The notes below the pieces were generated by a model. It was not told where the DNA came from and did no database searches. It saw only the letters and a program-made list of their open reading frames with translations. Below are positions 45 to 51,557 of a DNA stretch of 64,000 bases, piece by piece. Made by a program: the position numbers and the translations under genes. The stretch's first letter is position 1. Every line of letters begins with the position of its first letter. This DNA is from Methanobacteriales archaeon HGW-Methanobacteriales-1 (GTDB taxonomy: Archaea > Methanobacteriota > Methanobacteria > Methanobacteriales > Methanobacteriaceae): assembly GCA_002839705.1 (NCBI GenBank), contig PGYO01000001.1, positions 124,001-188,000 of the forward strand, given 5' to 3'.

Positions 45-54
45 TGGTGATTAA

Positions 55-408
55 ATGTCAAAACAACCTAGAAAACAAAGGAAATACATTTACAATGCAC
101 CTTTACATGCACGCCACAAACTAATGAGTGTAACCTTAAGCAAGGATCTTCGAGAAGAATTTGGTCGAAGATCTCTTCCTGTGAGAACTGGGGACACTGT
201 GCAGGTTATGCGCGGCGATTTTAAAGATCACGAAGGAAAAGTGGAAAAAGTAGACCTGAAACACTACCGTGTACGAGTAGAAGGTGCTACTACACAAAAA
301 CCTGACGGAAATCCAGTTTTCTTCCCAATTCACCCATCTAACTTGGTTATTGTGGAAATGGATTTAAAAGACGAAAAAAGAAACAAAATTATGGAAAGGA
401 AGGGATAA
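55..408 (+). CDS. rpl24p: Ribosomal protein uL24 (L24p)
   Basis: Large-subunit protein that binds 23S rRNA early in assembly. The 117-residue product has the basic archaeal N-terminus and a KOW motif (around residues 42-65, [16 protein letters not shown]). GGTGA at 46-50 precedes the ATG. It lies 10 bases after uL14 and 1 base before eS4, so the three are surely one transcript. Confidence 0.97.
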
Positions 409-409
409 T

Positions 410-1138
410 ATGGCAAAGATGGGATCAAGAAAACATCTTAAGCGTTATAAATCTCCTAAACACTGGCCCATTCATCCAAAAGAAGATAAATGGACAGTTA
501 AACCTGCTGCTGGACCTCACGCAATAGAAAGTTCACTACCTTTATTGATTGTCATTAGGGACATTCTGGGAATTGCTGATAATTCCCGGGAAGCTAAGAG
601 AATCATTAACAATGGTGAGATACTGGTAGATGGTGAAGTAAGGAAGGACTATAAATTCCCTGTTGGTTTCATGGATGTATTACAGATTCCTAAAAATGGT
701 GGAGTCTACAGAGTACTGCCTGATGCAAAGGGAAGATTAATTTTACATCCTATCACACAGGAAAATGTAGAATTTAAATTATGTAAAATTGAAAACAAAA
801 CCACTGTTAAAGACGGTAAAACCCAACTTAACTTACATGATGGCCGGAACTCTATTACTGAGGATCAGCTTTCTGCGGGTGATGTGGTAAAGCTCAAAGT
901 ACCTGAACAAGAAATTTTAGAAGCTATAAAATTCGAAGAAGGTATTATTGGTCTGGTTACTGGTGGTAAACACACGGGTGAGATTGGTAAAATTAAGGAA
1001 ATTAACATTACCAAATCTTCCATGCCTAACACAGTTGTTATGGAAACTGAAAATAATAAAACTTTCCTAACATTAAAAGATTATGTTTTCGTTATTGGAA
1101 AAGACGAACCTGTTATTTCACTTCCTGGAGGAAACTAA
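410..1138 (+). CDS. rps4e: Ribosomal protein eS4 (S4e)
   Basis: Small-subunit protein found in archaea and eukaryotes but not bacteria. The 242 residues are the usual length. An S4-type RNA-binding segment lies near residues 43-105 and a KOW-like stretch ([15 protein letters not shown]) near residue 180. AAGGAAGGGA precedes the ATG inside the uL24 end. The uL5 ATG follows its stop codon with no gap, indicating coupled translation. Confidence 0.97.
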
Positions 1139-1645
1139 ATGAACCCAATGGAAGAAGTAATAATAGCCAAAGCCACCATGAATATTGGTGTTGGTGAAGG
1201 TGGAGAACAATTGGTCCGGGCTGAAAAGCTTTTAAATGCTATGACTGGCCAGAATTCTGTTCGAACTTACTCTAAAGTTACTAATCCTGAATTCGGTATA
1301 AGAAAACATCAACCCATAGCTTGCAAAGTAACCTTAAGGGGCGAAAGAGCAGATAAAGCTATTAAAATGATATTAGATGGTATAGGTAACAAACTGAAAT
1401 CAAGACAGTTTGATGCTCAGGGTAATGTTTCATTTGGAATAAATGAACATATTGATATCCCTGGAATGAGGTATGATCCAGATATTGGTATTTTTGGAAT
1501 GAACTTATCAATTACCTTTGAAAAACCAGGATACCGAATCAAAAGAAGGAAAATTCAACGGAAAAAAATCCCAGCTAAACACATGGTAAAAAAAGAAGAA
1601 ACCATGAAATTTATGCAGGAAAAATTCCAGGTTAAGATTGTTTAA
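1139..1645 (+). CDS. rpl5p: Ribosomal protein uL5 (L5p)
   Basis: Large-subunit central protuberance protein that contacts 5S rRNA. The 168 residues open with [20 protein letters not shown], the conserved uL5 entry strand. The ATG at 1139 abuts the eS4 stop. An ATG two codons later (1148) is also possible but has no better ribosome binding site. Confidence 0.96.
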
Positions 1646-1656
1646 GGGTGAGATTT

Positions 1657-1800
1657 ATGCCAAGAAAATACGGAAAGGCATCCAGAAAATGTTCAAGATG
1701 CGGAGATCACTCTGCTCTGGTTAGAAGATACGGGCTCATGTTATGTAGACAGTGCTTCAGAGAACTCGCACCGAAAATCGGATTTAAAAAGTACAACTAG
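1657..1800 (+). CDS. rps14p: Ribosomal protein uS14 (S14p), zinc-binding form
   Basis: A 47-residue small-subunit protein. Four cysteines in two CxxC pairs (C12, C15, C30, C33) form the zinc site of the archaeal and C+ bacterial form. GGGTGA at 1646-1651 precedes ATG 1657, and the stop is TAG at 1798-1800. The length and the position between uL5 and uS8 are standard. Confidence 0.96.
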
Positions 1801-1821
1801 TACAGGAAAGAGGTGTTTAAT

Positions 1822-2214
1822 GTGACTCTTATGGATCCTCTCGCAAATGCCCTGACTAATATGCGAAACAATGAGTTGCAGGGAAATGGAAAATGTAATA
1901 TTTCCCCTGCTTCTAAATTGATAGGGCGAGTCTTAAGGACTATGCAAAAAGAAGGCTACATTGGTGAATTTGAATATGTAGATGACGGCAAAGCTGGAAA
2001 GTTCATAGTGGACTTAGAAGGTAATATTAACCAATGTGGGGTTGTAAAACCTAGACATGCCGTTAAGAAAGATGAATTTGAAAAATTCGAAAAAAGATAC
2101 TTGCCAGCTAAAAATTTCGGAATAATTATTGTTACCACCCCTCAGGGAATAATGACCCACAAAGAAGCTAAAGAAAAGGGTATTGGTGGCAGATTACTGG
2201 CATATATATATTAG
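1822..2214 (+). CDS. rps8p: Ribosomal protein uS8 (S8p)
   Basis: Small-subunit protein that binds the central domain of 16S rRNA. I place the start at GTG 1822 ([13 protein letters not shown]), because GAGGTG at 1810-1815 sits at normal distance from it and the conserved N-terminus begins there. A GTG at 1813 in the same frame overlaps that binding site and is unlikely. From 1822 the product has 130 residues, the usual length. Confidence 0.95.
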
Positions 2215-2222
2215 GTGATATG

Positions 2223-2756
2223 ATGGTTCTCGCAGCTGTAATTCGGGAAGAAATTGAAGTCCCGGAAGGTGTAAATATTACCCTAAATGATGAGGTAAAT
2301 GTTAATGGGCCTCAAGGAAAACTTTCCAGGAAGTTCATTTACCCAAACATCACCATAAAACAAGAAGAAGATAAAGTAGTCCTGGAAACTCAGTTTCCTA
2401 AAAAACAGGATAAAGCAATGATAGGCACTATCCGTTCACATATCACTAATATGATTCATGGTGTAACTGATGGATTTACTTATCATATGAAAATTGTATA
2501 CGCTCACTTTCCTATGACTGTTAAAGTGACTGGAAATAAGGTCATGATTGAAAACTTCCTTGGGGAAAGATATCCTCGTACTGCTAAAATAGTGGGAAGT
2601 GCAAAAGTCCAAGTAAAAGGTGAAGAAGTAACAATTACGGGCATTAATAAGGAAGATGTGGGTCAAACCATGGCTAATCTGGAACAAGCCACTAAAATTA
2701 AGGGAAGAGATCCCAGGGTTTTCCAGGATGGTATTTACCTTATTAGTAAAGAATAG
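2223..2756 (+). CDS. rpl6p: Ribosomal protein uL6 (L6p)
   Basis: Large-subunit protein near the sarcin-ricin loop. Two ATGs follow each other (2220 and 2223). GGTGA at 2214-2218 leaves only one base before the first but four before the second, and the product MVLAAVIREEIEVPEGV fits the family start, so I choose 2223. It overlaps nothing and follows the uS8 stop by 8 bases. Confidence 0.95.
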   Translation: MVLAAVIREEIEVPEGVNITLNDEVNVNGPQGKLSRKFIYPNITIKQEEDKVVLETQFPKKQDKAMIGTIRSHITNMIHGVTDGFTYHMKIVYAHFPMTVKVTGNKVMIENFLGERYPRTAKIVGSAKVQVKGEEVTITGINKEDVGQTMANLEQATKIKGRDPRVFQDGIYLISKE

Positions 2757-2784
2757 GGCTATTGAAAACTTATCGGTGATTTGA

Positions 2785-3111
2785 ATGAAGAAAAAATTCA
2801 AAAGGCAAGAATATGCCAGATATAAAAAGCTTGGTCAAAAGTGGAGAAGGGCCCGGGGAAAAACCAGTAAAATGAGGAGATATGAAAAGGGTAAACCTGC
2901 CATGCCTACTGTTGGTTATGGATCTCCAAAAGCTACAAGAGGTTTGCATCCTTCTGGTTATCAAGATATTCTTGTTTGTAATGTAAAAGAATTGGAAAAA
3001 TTAGATCCTAGTATTCAAGCAGGAAGAATTAGTTCCACTGTTGGAAAAAGAAAAAAGGAAATGATGTTATTAAAAGCAAAAGAACTTGGCATTAAAATAT
3101 TTAACAAATAA
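2785..3111 (+). CDS. rpl32e: Ribosomal protein eL32 (L32e)
   Basis: Archaeal/eukaryotic large-subunit protein of 108 residues, starting with the basic stretch [20 protein letters not shown]. The conserved segment [12 protein letters not shown] is present. GGTGA at 2774-2778 precedes the ATG. It ends the first uninterrupted part of the operon: the next gene is almost 400 bases away, although eL32 and eL19 are usually adjacent in relatives. Confidence 0.94.
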
Positions 3112-3508
3112 TGCCCAGTTTTTGAGCTATGTCCATAATTGGAATTTAATATAATTATAAAAATAATTATAAAAATTTAAATAAAATCTTGTAAAATACA
3201 TTGATTATAATTTAAATCATTAATTCAAAATTATAGAATAAATTATTGGACATATGGATTTGGTTAAAGGGAAATTTAAATAATTTCAGTGCATTGAATC
3301 TGTGATTAACATGATTTTTGATAATTATGGTTTCAATGGTACTCATGTTAAAACCAATCCAATGAAATGCGTTGCATTTCATGATAAAGGGTATACTTGA
3401 ATCTAATGGATAATATGTAATTAAATGGATTAATATTAATTATTATATTAATAAATTCATGTTTCAAGTCATTTTATCAGCTCAACGCTGAAAAAGGAGG
3501 TTTCTTAA
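3112..3508 (+). other. 397-base gene-free gap inside the ribosomal operon with inverted repeats
   Basis: No credible open frame is present. TATGTCCATAATT (3128-3140) pairs with AATTATTGGACATA (3241-3254) with one bulged base, spanning about 127 bases. A perfect palindrome ATGAAATGC-GTT-GCATTTCAT lies at 3362-3382, and a small hairpin TCAGC-TCAAC-GCTGA at 3477-3491 directly precedes the AAAGGAGG binding site of eL19. The gap probably holds a second promoter for eL19 onward and possibly a structured RNA. That function is inferred. Confidence 0.5.
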
Positions 3509-3958
3509 ATGAATCTTACTACTCAGAAAAGATTAGCTGCAGATATCCTGAAAGTAGGGGTAAATCGTGTATGGATTGATCCTGAACAAATAGAAGAAGT
3601 TTCACGGGCCATAACCAGGGAAAGCGTGAAGCAGCTAATAGACAACAAGGTAATTAGGGCTAAACCTCAACAAGGTATAAGCAGTTACAGGTCAAAGAAA
3701 ATAGCCCAGCAAAAAAGCAAGGGAAGAAGAAAAGGTAGAGGTAGTATAAAAGGAGCAAAAGGTGCTCGAAGACCCAAGAAAGAAGCTTGGATGACTACCA
3801 TAAGGGCCCTGAGAAAGGACCTTAAACAGATGAGAGACGACCGGGAAATTAATACTACTACGTATCGTAAACTCTACAGAATGGCAAAGGGCGGTGCCTT
3901 CAGAAGTAAATCTTACATGAAAACCTATGCCCGGGATCATGACTTGCTCAGGAAGTAG
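3509..3958 (+). CDS. rpl19e: Ribosomal protein eL19 (L19e)
   Basis: Archaeal/eukaryotic large-subunit protein of 149 residues with the typical start [20 protein letters not shown] and a very basic middle ([20 protein letters not shown]). The strong binding site AAAGGAGG (3493-3500) lies 8 bases before the ATG. It opens the second half of the spc-type block. Confidence 0.96.
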
Positions 3959-42831: not shown

Positions 42832-43995
42832 TTAAGATCTTTTCATCATTATATCCATTATACTAGATTTTCTTTTATTTTTATTTTCACTAGATGATTG
42901 CATACCTGGCATCATGAGGTTAGGTGAAGATAAAAATTCTTTATTGGCCCTATCTGTAATCTCTTTAAAAATCATTTTATAAGCCTCGCACTGGTGATCT
43001 ACACTTTTTATCTCCATTTTTTGAGATTCTTTATCCATAGTTAAAGCATTGTATGGACAACCACCTCTACAGAACTTTATATAAGAACAATCTGCACATT
43101 CATCATCTACTAATTTTTCCCAGTCTCTTAAGCTTTTTAGAGATTCTGATTTAGATAATTCTTCCATGGTAGGATGATCACGCACATTTCCCATTACATA
43201 TTCTTCCATTCCAACAAAACGATAACAAGGATATATATTTCCATCAGGGCCTATGGCAAAAGTATCGCCTACACAGTCGGCATAGGTACAAACGACCCCT
43301 CGGCGAACAAAAACTCCTTTACAGAGATGGTCAATATTTTTAATCTCTATTTCACCCATGTGTTCTAAATACTGATCTAAAAGATAAATTAGTAATTCCC
43401 CGTACTCTTCTGGAGATATGGTCCACTCTTCAGGGTCTTCACTTCTAAGTGATGGTAGGGCGGGGTGTAATTTAAGATCAAGATTATTATCTAAAAAGAA
43501 ATTAAATATAGCTTCTTTTTGAGCAATAGAACTGGATGTGAAAGTACTTATAAAACTAACATTTAATCCTTTTTCTTTAGCTATTTTATAACCTTGCATT
43601 GTTTTTTCAAAATAGCCTGAACCTCTCTGGGAATCATTTATTTCAAGGGGCCCATCTAAGCTGGATCCAATGGGAATATTATATTCTGCAAAAAGCTCGG
43701 CAATTTCTGGAGTCATTAACCATAAATTAGTTTGAATTGCGAAAGCAGGATTTAAATCACTTAATTCCTGACTTAATAATTCAAGTGCTTTTTTATAGAA
43801 TTCATATCCTGCCAGTAGGGGCTCTCCGCCATGAAAAGTGAAAGTTACTGGTTCTTTTCGGAAATTTTTTAACCATTCCACAGTCTCTTCGACTATTTCG
43901 ATATCCATAAGTTCAGATTCTTTGTCCACACCCCAGCAGTAACTGCAATTGGAGGGACAGTCCATAGAAGGAATTAACATAACATGAAAGGCCAT
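42832..43995 (-). CDS. Peptide-modifying radical SAM/SPASM enzyme (anaerobic sulfatase-maturase-like)
   Basis: 387 residues. The radical SAM cluster motif is C13-x3-C17-x2-C20 (DCPSNCSYCWG), followed by FTFHGGEPLLAG. A C-terminal SPASM domain has CTYADCVGD, CYRF, and CADCSYIKFCRGGC for auxiliary Fe-S clusters. I believe it belongs to the methanogen 'peptide-modifying' group (TIGR04083-like), which modifies a ribosomal peptide. A TATA-like TATTTATAAAAA region lies about 75-90 bases upstream. No obvious cysteine-rich precursor gene is adjacent. Confidence 0.88.
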   Translation of the reverse strand: MAFHVMLIPSMDCPSNCSYCWGVDKESELMDIEIVEETVEWLKNFRKEPVTFTFHGGEPLLAGYEFYKKALELLSQELSDLNPAFAIQTNLWLMTPEIAELFAEYNIPIGSSLDGPLEINDSQRGSGYFEKTMQGYKIAKEKGLNVSFISTFTSSSIAQKEAIFNFFLDNNLDLKLHPALPSLRSEDPEEWTISPEEYGELLIYLLDQYLEHMGEIEIKNIDHLCKGVFVRRGVVCTYADCVGDTFAIGPDGNIYPCYRFVGMEEYVMGNVRDHPTMEELSKSESLKSLRDWEKLVDDECADCSYIKFCRGGCPYNALTMDKESQKMEIKSVDHQCEAYKMIFKEITDRANKEFLSSPNLMMPGMQSSSENKNKRKSSIMDIMMKRS

Positions 43996-44128
43996 TTAAA
44001 CACCGTTTACCTGATTATTATTTAAAATAATTATCTTAATTGACTATTGGTTGTTTTTCAGTATATAGTTTTTATAAATAGTACAATTAATTTTTAATTA
44101 TTTTTAAAATCTTAAAATAAGTATTATG

Positions 44129-44205
44129 GAGGGCCCTTAAACATTTTATAAAAAGGGGGGGGTCAAAATGAGATTAAGGACCCTCTATAACCAATAAAAT
44201 GGTTA
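44129..44205 (-). ncRNA. Stem-loop element 1 with conserved TAACCA hairpin
   Basis: Read on minus: hairpin TAACCA-TTTTAT-TGGTTA (44205-44188), then GAGGGTCCTTAA (44185-44174) pairing with TTAAGGGCCCTC (44140-44129) around a loop with a run of eight C. The one non-Watson-Crick pair is a G-U wobble if transcribed from minus but a C-A mismatch from plus, which favours the minus strand. A non-coding RNA is inferred. Confidence 0.5.
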
Positions 44206-44238
44206 CCTTGATATGTATTGATATTTTAATTTAATAAA

Positions 44239-44323
44239 GCCCTTAGATCCTATAATTTATATTATGGAGTGAGACGATACAACTTATAATGATCTAAGGG
44301 CAAATAACCAAATAAAATGGTTA
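44239..44323 (-). ncRNA. Stem-loop element 2 with conserved TAACCA hairpin
   Basis: Same plan as element 1: TAACCA (44323-44318) and TGGTTA (44310-44305), then an 11-base perfect stem GCCCTTAGATC (44301-44291) with GATCTAAGGGC (44249-44239). The stem sequence differs from the other copies but pairing is kept, which suggests selection on structure. The loop contains TCTCACTCC. Confidence 0.5.
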
Positions 44324-44383
44324 AAGTGATGTTTTTATTTCTTTTTAAATTCTAATATGAAAATTTTAAACATGATAGAAACC

Positions 44384-44431
44384 TCAGAAAATGTTTTTAT
44401 TCGGGGAGGTGAACACCAAAATTTTTTCTGA
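44384..44431 (-). ncRNA. Stem-loop element 4 with CACCTCCCC loop
   Basis: On minus, TCAGAAAA (44431-44424) pairs with TTTTCTGA (44391-44384). The loop holds TTCACCTCCCCG, nearly the anti-Shine-Dalgarno sequence. It lacks the TAACCA hairpin. It lies about 75 bases downstream of the promoter-like repeat at 44504-44527. Confidence 0.4.
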
Positions 44432-44503
44432 AGTATTCTAACAATAAATGAAATGGATATTCCTTTGATTAATTAAACCATCCCATAAATTCTTTTTTGT
44501 GAT

Positions 44504-44527
44504 AGACCTTAAAAGTAGTTTTTCCCA
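44504..44527 (-). promoter_or_regulatory. 24-base repeat, copy 1 (putative promoter for the stem-loop cluster)
   Basis: The minus strand reads TGGGAAAAACTACTTTTAAG followed by GTCT. It is identical to 46599-46622 in front of the ABC exporter. TTTTAA is a plausible TATA core. The stem-loop elements lie downstream of it on the minus strand. Confidence 0.5.
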
Positions 44528-44655
44528 CTTTAGGCCCAAATCATACACAAATTTCCAGTGTAACTTGTTTTAAATAATATTTTAAATAATCAAGTTCTTA
44601 ATATGGAAATCTAATTGAAATTAATATCTTAACCTTATCTTTAATTTTAAAAGAA

Positions 44656-44723
44656 AAAGGGCACTTAAAATGCTGCAAAGGAGGTTAAATGAATAAGTGC
44701 CCTTTCTTATAACCAAATGGTTA
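44656..44723 (-). ncRNA. Stem-loop element 3 at the end of the ABC operon
   Basis: Starts on the stop codon of the ABC ATPase gene: TAACCA (44723-44718) and TGGTTA (44715-44710), then AAAGGGCACTTA (44705-44694) pairing perfectly with TAAGTGCCCTTT (44667-44656), followed by TTCTTTT. The loop contains AACCTCCTTT. It may act as a terminator, a small RNA, or both. Confidence 0.5.
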
Positions 44724-45392
44724 CTTTGAATTTGTTATTTGACCGTCTCGAACTTCAATAGTTCTATCGGCCATGTCTGCCACATATGTTTCGTGAGTTA
44801 CCAGGATTAAAGTAACATTCTCAGCTTTATGAATTTTTTTAAGAACATCTAAAATCACATCGCCTGTTTTAGAATCAAGTGCTCCAGTAGGCTCATCGGC
44901 CAAAATTATGGATGGATGATTAACTAATGCTCGGGCAATGGCTACTCTTTGCCTTTCTCCTCCAGAAAGCTTGGTAGGGAACTGGTTAATTTTAGATGAC
45001 AAATTAAGAGACTCTAAAATGCTATTAGCCCTTTTAATCATATCTTCATCACTTATATCTGTGTGGATCATGGGTATTTGTACATTCTCGGAGACAGTTA
45101 AATTGGGTATCAGGTTATGTAACTGAAATATAAAACCGATTTCTTTAGACCTAAAATGGCTGAAATCCTTTTTTTCCATTAAGTCAATGCCAGCAACATT
45201 TATGGATCCTTCATCGGCTTGATCCAGTGCACCTAACATATTTAAAAGAGTTGATTTACCGGACCCTGAAGGCCCAATAATGGAAACAAACTCTCCTTTT
45301 TTAATTTCTAGATTTAGGTTGTCTAAAGCAATTGTATTTCCGTCGTCATACAATTTTATTAAATTTTTGATTTCAATTATATTTTTATTCAT
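44721..45392 (-). CDS. ABC transporter ATP-binding protein (MacB/LolD-like)
   Basis: 223 residues with Walker A GPSGSGKST, Q-loop FIFQLHNLIP, signature LSGGERQRVAIARAL, Walker B IILADEPTGALDSK and the H-loop LVTHETYVA. It partners the FtsX-type permease, whose stop overlaps its start by 8 bases. Substrate unknown; the linked peptide-modifying enzyme makes peptide export a reasonable guess. Its stop codon is part of stem-loop element 3. Confidence 0.95.
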   Translation of the reverse strand: MNKNIIEIKNLIKLYDDGNTIALDNLNLEIKKGEFVSIIGPSGSGKSTLLNMLGALDQADEGSINVAGIDLMEKKDFSHFRSKEIGFIFQLHNLIPNLTVSENVQIPMIHTDISDEDMIKRANSILESLNLSSKINQFPTKLSGGERQRVAIARALVNHPSIILADEPTGALDSKTGDVILDVLKKIHKAENVTLILVTHETYVADMADRTIEVRDGQITNSK

Positions 45393-46581
45393 AACGCAAC
45401 GCCTCGGTAGGTGCTAATCGGGAAGCCCGATATGCAGGATATAGTCCACCAATTACTCCCATTAAAAGACCTATGCCTAATGCTTTGATGAATAATGTCA
45501 ATGAATATGTTGGTTGAATGAATTGTAGCATGTTAGACAGACTTAATATCTCAACAACACCCACTCCAACTAATATTCCAACAATGGATGCTATTAGGGA
45601 TAGTATCAATGATTCTCCAATTATCATTACCATTACCCATTTTTTAGTCCAACCTACAGCTTTTAATACTCCAATTTCTCTAGTTCTTTCTGAAACTGAT
45701 TTAATCATAGTAATTACAACTATTATTCCTCCAATAAAGATGGCCAGAAGTGAGATTCCCCAGACCGCGGATTTTATAATATCCATTCCAGAGTTCATTC
45801 TATCCATTCCTGATAGTGAAGTAGAAGTTGACAAATCACTGTAGGTGCTTTCGATAGTGTCTGCTGTTTTATTGGCAATACTACTGTCTGTTGTTTTAAC
45901 CAGGACAGAAGAGACTTTTCCAGTATTATTGGTCAGATTTTGTAAGGTACTCAATGACATTATAATACCATTGTCCTGCATTGTTTCTCCAGTTTCATAA
46001 ATTCCAACAATTTTAAAAGTCTGATTGGAAATGGTTACTGTATCCCCAATTGTTTTATTCTGACTCTCCGCTGCAGTTTTACCAATTATAACTTCATCGG
46101 CACTGGAATATGTGGAACCATTGGCCACTTTTACATCATACATTTCGAGATTTTTGGAATCCATTCCTAAAACGGTTGCTGGCATTGTCATACTTGGTTG
46201 ACCAGAGTTTGAACTGCCTGGCTGCTGGTCGGTATTATTCGTACTATTAGTGCTATCATCTGAAATACTGGACCTTAGAACCCCAGCAACACTTTCTACA
46301 CCTGAAATTTGGGCTATTTTATTAACCGTTGTTTCATTAATCAACTGCTGACTTCCTCCAAAACCTCCCGGGCCTCCACCCTGACCATTGTAACTGGCTG
46401 AAACCACTGAGAAGTCTGCTGCACCCGCGGTAAGAGCTTGTTCGGTAGATGTAGATAGTCCATCTGTAAGCAGCCCCAAACCCAGAATGGTAGCAATTCC
46501 TATGGCAATCCCAATCATGGCCAGGGAACTTCTAGCTTTGTTTCTAAAAATGTTTTTTAGAATTAAATTTCTATATTTCAT
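45385..46581 (-). CDS. ABC transporter permease (MacB/FtsX-like)
   Basis: 398 residues: one N-terminal helix, a large outer domain (about residues 40-270) rich in Asn, Ser and Thr, and three C-terminal helices, the MacB layout. The end of the protein holds GGLYPAYRASRLAPTEALRYE, typical of the family. ATG 46581 (MKYRNLILKNIFRNKARSSL) fits the family start; the frame is open further upstream but there overlaps a promoter-like repeat. No binding site precedes 46581, so the mRNA may be leaderless. Confidence 0.92.
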   Translation of the reverse strand: MKYRNLILKNIFRNKARSSLAMIGIAIGIATILGLGLLTDGLSTSTEQALTAGAADFSVVSASYNGQGGGPGGFGGSQQLINETTVNKIAQISGVESVAGVLRSSISDDSTNSTNNTDQQPGSSNSGQPSMTMPATVLGMDSKNLEMYDVKVANGSTYSSADEVIIGKTAAESQNKTIGDTVTISNQTFKIVGIYETGETMQDNGIIMSLSTLQNLTNNTGKVSSVLVKTTDSSIANKTADTIESTYSDLSTSTSLSGMDRMNSGMDIIKSAVWGISLLAIFIGGIIVVITMIKSVSERTREIGVLKAVGWTKKWVMVMIIGESLILSLIASIVGILVGVGVVEILSLSNMLQFIQPTYSLTLFIKALGIGLLMGVIGGLYPAYRASRLAPTEALRYE

Positions 46582-46598
46582 ACTTCTTTTTCTAAAAA

Positions 46599-46622
46599 AG
46601 ACCTTAAAAGTAGTTTTTCCCA
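46599..46622 (-). promoter_or_regulatory. 24-base repeat, copy 2 (putative promoter of the ABC exporter operon)
   Basis: Identical to 44504-44527. On minus, TTTTAA lies about 23-28 bases before the permease ATG at 46581, the spacing expected for a leaderless archaeal transcript. Confidence 0.5.
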
Positions 46623-46802
46623 ATTTGCACACAACTCTTACCTTAATTATACATAAATTATGTACAAATTGGAAGGGCCATGAAAAAATGGACTAAGGTA
46701 CAAATCGTAAACTTATAAAATAAACATTCAAAATAAAATAAAAAATTAATATTATAAATAAATAAGTAAATAAATAATTATTTGTTATTTATTCATTGAT
46801 TA

Positions 46803-47132
46803 TCATCTTCTAGTTAATTTAAATAATATGATAAGTGCAATTAACTGCACTATGTTAATTAATGTTAAGGGTAACCTGGCATGATTAATTTCAGGGCCTG
46901 GTGGTGGGCCGGGTATTGTAAATTGCAGTGCGGCAAATATTACTGAAATAACGTTTTGGAATAGTAAAAGCATTGAAAAGATAATTAGTCCCACTGTAAA
47001 GTCGGATTTGACTTCTTCATAAGTTTTCCAATAGGAATACATTAGAACTAGGAGCAGGGCAATATTTGCAAGTCCAATTACTAAAGCCACAACTGATAAT
47101 TCTATTAAGTGCCAAAATCCATCTATAATCAT
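46803..47132 (-). CDS. Small membrane protein, partner of the winged-helix regulator
   Basis: 109 residues with three hydrophobic helices and an [20 protein letters not shown] segment between the first two. Its start overlaps the regulator stop by four bases (ATGA). A paralogous pair stands at 50806-51406. Function unknown; the fixed pairing suggests that the membrane protein modulates the regulator or is its target. Confidence 0.7.
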
Positions 47133-47422
47133 AATTTTTCCCCATCAATGTCCAGTTTTTGCCAAATTTCTTTAAAATCTGCGTAATTTTCAATTATTTT
47201 GTCTGAAAGAAAATAAAGATCCCCATATTTCTTTCCAGAAGAAGTGACTACCTGATTTTCTTCCAAAACTTTTAAATGATGCCTTACTGTTTTGTAATTA
47301 AGATTTAATGATTCTGTTAATTGATTAGCATTATGAGGCTTTTTATTTAATTCGATTATTATTCTTCCTCGATTAGGGCCCCCAGTGGAACCGGCAATCA
47401 GCCACCATAATAATTTTTTCAT
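47129..47422 (-). CDS. Winged-helix transcriptional regulator (ArsR-like)
   Basis: 97 residues. The recognition-helix region reads [20 protein letters not shown], followed by a wing ([10 protein letters not shown]). The N-terminus [20 protein letters not shown] is typical of methanogen ArsR-like proteins. TAGGGATAAAA precedes the ATG. It may control the divergent or neighbouring exporter, but no operator was identified. Confidence 0.82.
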
Positions 47423-47533
47423 TTTTATCCCTAATCATAAATAATCTAATTTAGCTCAAAATTTGAATTAACATAATCATAGATAATATTTTCATAATTA
47501 TATACGATATTAAGATTCATGGTATTTAAAATA

Positions 47534-47704
47534 TTATTCTTCACTTTCCTTATTTTCACCAGATTCAAATACATAACCACATTTTTCGCAAACAATGGCC
47601 TTGGTGGTGGCATGTGCGAGGTGTTCATCCATCATCTTTCTTTGAACCGTTTTATCTTGACTTCCACATTCTGGACATTTTTTAAGTAATTCTTCCATTT
47701 TCAT
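47534..47704 (-). CDS. Small zinc-ribbon protein
   Basis: 56 residues: MKMEELLKKCPECGSQDKTV and later IVCEKCGYVF form a classic two-pair zinc ribbon, with an acidic C-terminus. GGTGATACA precedes ATG 47704, and a second ATG follows two codons later. It lies 24 bases after the CcdC-like gene on the same strand. Confidence 0.75.
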   Translation of the reverse strand: MKMEELLKKCPECGSQDKTVQRKMMDEHLAHATTKAIVCEKCGYVFESGENKESEE

Positions 47705-47728
47705 TGTATCACCAGTTAATTTAATGAT

Positions 47729-50805: not shown

Positions 50806-51114
50806 CTATTCCCACGTAACTTTTATAAGAATTGAAAGCGCTATAAATTCGCTTAAATTAACTACAGTCATTACTGAATGTTCGAATGATCCCCAAAAGT
50901 GCTTATATATTATTAAGGTTAAAACAAACAGTAAATTGTGGACTAAAAGGAATACAGCGAATAATAGGAGACCTAAAGCAAATTTTGACTTAAAGTGATT
51001 GTAATTCTTCCAGTATACAAAAATTAATCCTAATATCAATATTATATTTCCTAGCCCAAAAACAAGGTCAATGGCACTTGAATTCCATATTTGACTTAAA
51101 ATTTCTATTAGCAT
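50806..51114 (-). CDS. Small membrane protein, paralogue of 46803-47132
   Basis: 102 residues with three helices. VYWKNYNHFKSKFALGLLLF parallels [20 protein letters not shown] of the other copy. It lies four bases after the paired winged-helix gene. Function unknown. Confidence 0.7.
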   Translation of the reverse strand: MLIEILSQIWNSSAIDLVFGLGNIILILGLIFVYWKNYNHFKSKFALGLLLFAVFLLVHNLLFVLTLIIYKHFWGSFEHSVMTVVNLSEFIALSILIKVTWE

Positions 51115-51118
51115 TATA

Positions 51119-51406
51119 TTATTCTCCTATTTTTAAATTATCCTTTATTTTTTCAAATATCTTGTAATTTGCTTCCATTTCATCAGAAATGAAAAATAAC
51201 GCCCCGTAACTTACTCCTTTAGTGCATATAATAACATTATTTTCTTCTAATAATCTTAGATGATGTTTAACTGTTTTGTAGTTTAAATTAAGCTCTTCAG
51301 AGATTTGATGGGCATTACATGGCTTTTCATCTATTAAATTTGTTATTTTAGCCCTGTTTATCCCGCCCTTACTACCCATGAAGAGCCACCATATCAGTTT
51401 TTTCAT
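51119..51406 (-). CDS. Winged-helix transcriptional regulator, paralogue of 47129-47422
   Basis: 95 residues from ATG 51406 (MKKLIWWLFMGSKGGINRAK), preceded by AGGGGATTAAT. The helix-turn-helix reads [20 protein letters not shown]. The frame extends ten codons upstream without homology to its paralogue. It is placed at the head of the surface-protein island and may regulate it. Confidence 0.8.
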   Translation of the reverse strand: MKKLIWWLFMGSKGGINRAKITNLIDEKPCNAHQISEELNLNYKTVKHHLRLLEENNVIICTKGVSYGALFFISDEMEANYKIFEKIKDNLKIGE

Positions 51407-51557
51407 ATTAATCCCCTGCTTCACTAAAAGATTCATAAAACACGAAAATTACTTAAAATCTTTTTTTATCTATTTATACTATAAATATCAATTTTTTTTG
51501 TATTATGTGGTATAATAATCTTTTTTATCATAATTTACTCATTATTTAAAGAATATA

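Follow-up and report, generated by a model that had tools for sequence, protein, structure and literature searches.

C-rich stem-loops with anti-Shine-Dalgarno loop cores beside an ABC exporter operon in a Methanobacteriales archaeon: a candidate tandem RNA family

Masking of ribosome-binding sites by small RNAs is known from both bacteria and archaea. LhrC of Listeria monocytogenes is present in five copies, each with three CU-rich motifs, located in loops and single-stranded stretches, that block a Shine-Dalgarno site, and its target is the mRNA of a cell-envelope protein (PMC4132741). IsrR carries three C-rich regions and belongs to a low-GC genome (PMC9410917). In the archaeon Methanosarcina mazei, ribosome-binding sites are masked by sRNA154, through the anti-RBS loop 2, and by sRNA41 (PMC5867862), and also by sRNA162 (PMC3510493). 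The locus described here lies in a 64,000-nt stretch of the genome of Methanobacteriales archaeon HGW-Methanobacteriales-1 (the window). It resembles LhrC1-5, as well as IsrR, RsaE and RoxS of low-GC Gram-positives, in its redundant C- or CU-rich motifs on related copies, and it shares with the hosts of LhrC-type RNAs a low-GC genome where G-rich sequence is mostly Shine-Dalgarno. In contrast to the LhrC type, the host is an archaeon, the loops are larger and the stems longer, one copy sits in the 3' UTR of an exporter gene, no Rfam sequence similarity was reported, and expression and pairing are predicted. With the Methanosarcina mazei RNAs it has in common the archaeal host and the predicted masking of ribosome-binding sites, although it comes from another order and the Rfam search detected no similarity to them. 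Indeed, no family of Rfam 15 was at or near its gathering threshold, the best sub-threshold scores being far below the cut-offs, and the literature search did not find a tandem stem-loop family described for the Methanosarcina mazei RNAs. In the literature searched, the plan of the locus, tandem paralogues with large open loops, one of them in an exporter 3' UTR, is not described, and an earlier note on this DNA likewise knew of no archaeal family built in this way. The locus probably encodes a regulatory RNA of a kind well known in some bacteria and hardly described in this archaeal group.

The four stem-loops that the earlier note had described are present at the positions given in Table 1, far beyond what chance would produce. 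In particular, a scan of 744 kb of stretches of the source genome for perfect stems (11 bp or more, 5 or more GC pairs, loop of 15-60 nt) gave just four, of which E1 and E2 are two. Each of the four elements folds on the minus strand with a z-score between -4.1 and -7.0, and in 116 kb of intergenic sequence no run of C or G is longer than the C8 run of E3. E1, E2 and E3 share the small hairpin, which precedes the long stem on its 5' side when read on minus, and, as had been claimed, the sequence of the long stem varies between copies while its pairing is kept: the minus-strand stems differ yet are related (AAGGGCACTTA, TTTGCCCTTAG and GAGGGTCCTTAA, respectively). The loops of E1 and E3 on this strand both open with CATTTnnACC(T/C)CC. 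Loop lengths range from 26 to 41 nt, and the loops of E4, E3 and E1 are predicted to be unpaired, with several C-rich motifs on one putative RNA. As RNA, the anti-Shine-Dalgarno cores of the loops are CACCUCC in E4, ACCUCC in E1, GACCCCCC in E3 and CACUCC in E2.

Table 1. Features of the locus and of a second C-rich family. Positions are those of the window unless a contig is named; for elements, motifs and RNAs the strand is the supported reading.
Feature	Position	Strand	Description
E1	44656-44723	minus	Hairpin TAACCA-TT-TGGTTA (TAACCA-AA-TGGTTA read on plus), then perfect 12-bp stem AAAGGGCACTTA/TAAGTGCCCTTT; loop AACCTCCTTT, also given as TTCATTTAACCTCCTTTGCAGCATTT
E2	44239-44323	minus	Hairpin TAACCA/TGGTTA, then perfect 11-bp stem; long loop holding CTCACTCC, with 16-nt stretch CTCACTCCATAATATA
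E3	44129-44205	minus	Hairpin TAACCA/TGGTTA, then 12-bp stem with one imperfect pair; loop CATTTTGACCCCCCCC with C8 run
E4	44384-44431 (about 44382-44433)	minus	10-11-bp stem without the TAACCA hairpin; loop CACCTCCCC; GGTGTTCACCTCCCCGAATAAAA with CACCTCC, an anti-Shine-Dalgarno sequence
Promoter/operator-like motif TTGGGCCTAAAGTGGGAAAAACTACTTTTAAGGTCT	44504..44539	minus	Direct TTGGG/TGGG repeats about 11 nt apart and TATA-like box
Second motif copy	46599..46634	minus	Before the ABC permease start codon (46580)
Putative non-coding RNA with E4, E2 and E3	44100..44492	minus	Extent predicted from conservation and the promoter-like motif
ABC exporter ATPase, MacB/LolD-like	44721..45392	minus	3' end of mRNA carries E1
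Peptide-modifying radical SAM/SPASM enzyme, TIGR04083 family	42832..43995	minus	Neighbour of E3
Second C-rich RNA family	G000:C1:452372-452486, 467684-467791, 502467-502581 (L329, L333, L332)	minus	Intergenic

The position of the elements relative to the neighbouring genes bears on whether they act in cis. E1 sits in the 3' UTR of the ABC ATPase gene, starting at its stop codon, and the U-rich TTTTTCTTTT comes after the stem of E1 on minus, as would be the case if E1 ended or protected the exporter mRNA. On the same reading, which we consider rather unlikely, E4, E2 and E3 would terminate or protect a short transcript, or serve as a leader or attenuator of the radical SAM gene, the C-rich loops being incidental; in two genomes E3 does immediately precede the radical SAM promoter. 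However, a separate conserved TATA-like promoter of this gene lies between it and E3, at about 44065-44080, and the box is shared with a genome of the same genus (G002) which carries the radical SAM gene and in which the elements were not found. There is also no long U tract directly after the stems of E2 and E3, and a terminator search gave no site, the loops exceeding the length that its rule allows. The terminator or attenuator alternative of the earlier note fits E1 best, with its stop codon and U-rich tail, but the combination of GC stem, short loop and direct U tract of an intrinsic terminator was not found, E1 alone having a U-rich tail directly after the stem. The link to the radical SAM gene drawn in that note is one of position only: most relatives with the gene have no elements, a survey of the regions upstream of it in 60 relatives gave no additional ones, and in one genome the elements accompany the ABC operon without the radical SAM gene. 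Targeting by the locus of its own radical SAM or ABC start regions was rejected, the predicted duplexes being ordinary.

Two similar gene pairs, each for a small ArsR-like HTH protein and a membrane protein, are located at 46803-47422 and 50806-51436, and the first, which adjoins the ABC operon, may encode its regulator. At 47534-47704 there is a gene for a 56-aa zinc-ribbon peptide. In both G002 and G013 the TIGR04083 radical SAM gene has a homologue of this gene immediately upstream; the peptide gene may be the original neighbour of the radical SAM gene, from which the insertion of the ABC genes would have parted it here.

Homologues of the locus have a narrow spread. A search of 60 relatives returned long homologues in a genome of the same genus with the same context (G001) and in one of another genus (G013), while a third genome (G010) carries E3 alone, upstream of a radical SAM gene of 85% identity. 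When E1, E2 and E3 from three genomes were combined into a covariance model, with E-values from a shortened calibration, it matched these three and the source genome, i.e., 4 of the 139 genomes of the taxonomic family, and a scan of the 139 with the pattern TATAACCAN{2,8}TGGTTA plus stem gave only the same four. A covariance-model search, as the earlier note had proposed for Methanobacterium genomes, did recover homologues with their stems kept, in a small fraction of the family. ABC paralogues at 49-51% identity have no elements.

The match in G013 is a block: positions 51-3674 of its contig C49 (L258) correspond to 44046-47725 of the window at 91% identity, followed by unrelated genes, presumably hypD and others (named from sequence). 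The block comprises the ABC operon, the HTH/membrane gene pair and the element cluster and ends in a frameshifted zinc-ribbon gene; it has apparently moved between genera, unless the G013 bin is mixed. This movement, together with the three related tandem copies, could suggest mobile or recombination-site DNA such as a MITE or an attC-like site, a reading that is disfavoured and, in our judgement, very improbable. Indeed, the covariance search (E<0.5) placed the elements at a single locus in the source genome, rather than in the dispersed copies of a MITE, the ends of the block (44046 and 47725) are away from the elements, the spacers are constrained, and a phage and plasmid search gave no match; in viral contigs the pattern had 15 matches, 0 of them with the full structure.

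Between the source and G013 blocks, 1 of 128 nt has changed in the stems, with 0 changes in that of E1, as against 25 of 155 in the loops and linkers (p=2e-6). The cores GGAGGTT, GGAGGTGA and GGGGGGTC and the 16-mer of E2 are identical in the two, so that the loop cores are no more variable than the stems while adjacent loop bases differ, which argues against a purely cis-acting role with incidental loops. The spacers between the elements differ at 18 of 286 positions, compared with 30 of 96 in the spacer immediately upstream of the promoter-like motif (p=4e-9), indicating that the whole unit from the motif to E3 is constrained beyond its stems, although most of it was compared across two diverged genomes, one of which is possibly a mixed bin. 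This constraint is like that of the adjoining coding genes; indels that are not multiples of three argue against coding, and mini-ORFs as peptides were rejected as they are not conserved. Covariation points in the same direction as the invariant stems: four stem pairs are altered on both sides between copies or genomes, with 91.5% of cells paired, and E3 differs from its G010 counterpart by one G-C to A-U and one U-G to C-G change.

The strand of the putative RNA is supported as minus by several features of the sequence. The promoter/operator-like motif reads toward E4-E2-E3 and is conserved in G001 and G013, and before E3 in G010; with its second copy in front of the ABC permease gene, it suggests co-regulation of the ABC operon with the E4-E2-E3 unit, the RNA of which is predicted to start at about 44490. 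An ATG stands at the same offset from the motif at the permease gene and in the locus, where it opens a five-codon frame only. A 21-nt form of the motif, TTGGGnnTAAnnTGGGAAAAA, occurs 12 times in the source genome with up to 2 mismatches compared with 0 for its reversed control, many of these copies falling in coding sequence or being of uncertain relevance. The fold of one genome scored on the other is also informative, since fewer minus-strand pairs are lost than expected (p 0.027 and 0.023) and plus-strand pairs are not kept beyond expectation (p 0.12 and 0.53). In the source genome all four elements fold better on minus, but fold energy does not favour this strand for E1 of G013 and E3 of G010. 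The earlier note had relied on an imperfect pair that is G-U only on minus; this is true of the inner imperfect pair of E3 and of that of E4, but it is not decisive. Indeed, the outer pair of E3, in the extended stem, is G-U only on plus and the extension of E1 gives one of each, so that G-U pairs alone cannot settle the strand.

On the plus strand, the loops of E1 and E3 read as a Shine-Dalgarno sequence with an ATG (GGAGGTTAAATG, GGGGGGTCAAAATG) and that of E4 has the core GGAGGTGA, so that a plus-strand RNA could offer ribosome-binding decoys or mini-ORF leaders. This is improbable in our view, because the ATG of E3 is ACG in G013, the mini-ORFs are not conserved, the distance from Shine-Dalgarno sequence to ATG is 4-5 nt as against the 6-7 nt preferred by the genome, only the antisense of the ABC gene lies downstream on plus, and the conserved promoter-like motif faces the opposite direction.

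Read on minus, the loops are, by sequence, complementary to Shine-Dalgarno sites in general, as the ribosome-binding sites of the source genome are of the GGAGG type, 6-7 nt before the start codon. Possible targets were sought by simple sequence matches. The 16-nt stretch of E2 is perfectly complementary to the ribosome-binding site of a lipoprotein gene (L186:7646). The source genome and G001 each contain the 16-mer two times, once in E2 and once at the lipoprotein gene; in G002, which has no E2, it occurs once, at the lipoprotein orthologue, and in G013 it is found only in E2, with no such target there. However, 13 of 417 genuine start regions share at least 16 nt with another start region, and the match is thus suggestive only. 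A genome-wide pattern search with the E1 and E3 cores gave no outstanding target, nor did a search for E4 in a 29% sample of the genome. Accordingly, the comparison with translation start regions proposed in the earlier note yielded one 16-nt match, for E2, but nothing outstanding for E1, E3 and E4. The suggestion of that note that the elements are minus-strand small RNAs able to bind Shine-Dalgarno sequences is supported indirectly, by the promoter-like motif, the constraint on the whole unit, the better-kept minus-strand structure, the invariant cores and the one 16-nt complement. Specific targeting is weak statistically and is best taken as a suggestive lead. Several similar loops on one RNA could also serve to sequester a protein, as CsrB and RsmZ sequester CsrA by GGA loops. 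This we regard as quite improbable here, as the cores are not the same in all elements and a long specific complement exists for one loop, and we know of no C-binding regulator of this type in such a setting.

Other C-rich RNA candidates came to light when the sampled genome was scanned for orphan anti-Shine-Dalgarno sites. Three loci form a second family (Table 1), with a TATA-like box, a small hairpin TTTATC/GATAAA, a stem GGAAGATC../GATCTTCC, and CTCCCCCTC in the loop or GACCCCCCC in the tail. Besides the three copies in the source genome there is one each in G001 and G002, the latter with the same flanking genes as the copy at 467684, and the family is not in Rfam. It is like the E family in having a small AU-rich hairpin, a GC-richer stem, a C-rich loop or tail (CTCCCCCT, GACCCCCCC), an intergenic position and a TATA-like box, but there is no sequence homology between the two, and the copy common to three genomes has its C-tract after the stem and not in the loop. 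Single structures were also seen. At L291:6238-6304 (G000:C1, minus), a perfect 14-bp stem holds a fully open 39-nt loop, CACCTCCCTATTTTCACTCCTAACAACCCCTTTTTATTT, which contains CACCUCCC, CACUCC and ACCCC; adjoining it is a hairpin TGTGTGTAGTGAACACACA followed by TCACCCCC. At L298:7263-7315, an intergenic 10-bp stem TTTAGGGAAG with TACCTCCTGAATC in its loop is a candidate anti-Shine-Dalgarno hairpin. Such further structured C-rich cases make it less likely that C-rich loops arose incidentally, without being proof of function.

Collectively, these observations lead us to propose a structured, multi-loop RNA from the minus strand that would mask Shine-Dalgarno sites in the manner of LhrC and would be linked to the exporter operon, a proposal whose prospects we judge to be evenly balanced. 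In this proposal, a predicted regulated promoter at 44504-44539, of which the adjacent operon of the MacB-type ABC exporter has a copy too, would give rise to an RNA of about 360-400 nt that carries the stem-loops E4, E2 and E3, E1 being located separately in the 3' UTR of the exporter mRNA. A regulator of the ABC exporter, for which the ArsR-like protein encoded at 47129-47422 is a candidate, would act on both copies of the promoter. The rigid stems would present the open C-rich loops with their anti-Shine-Dalgarno cores exposed, and these may then pair in trans with the ribosome-binding sites of mRNAs and block their translation upon induction of the exporter, the target of E2 being perhaps the lipoprotein mRNA. 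A broader version is more tentative, and we doubt it as a whole: paralogous antisense stem-loops in tandem would share a common scaffold, each loop matched to a different mRNA at its ribosome-binding site and all of them co-induced with the exporter, and they would be one of several unrelated C-rich sRNA families that arose in the genus, an independent archaeal counterpart of the C-rich sRNAs of Gram-positives.

A compact and strongly constrained locus with anti-Shine-Dalgarno loops, a predicted promoter and a predicted target can be put to a direct test, and the second C-rich family hints that C-rich RNAs may be a favoured solution of low-GC genomes in both domains.
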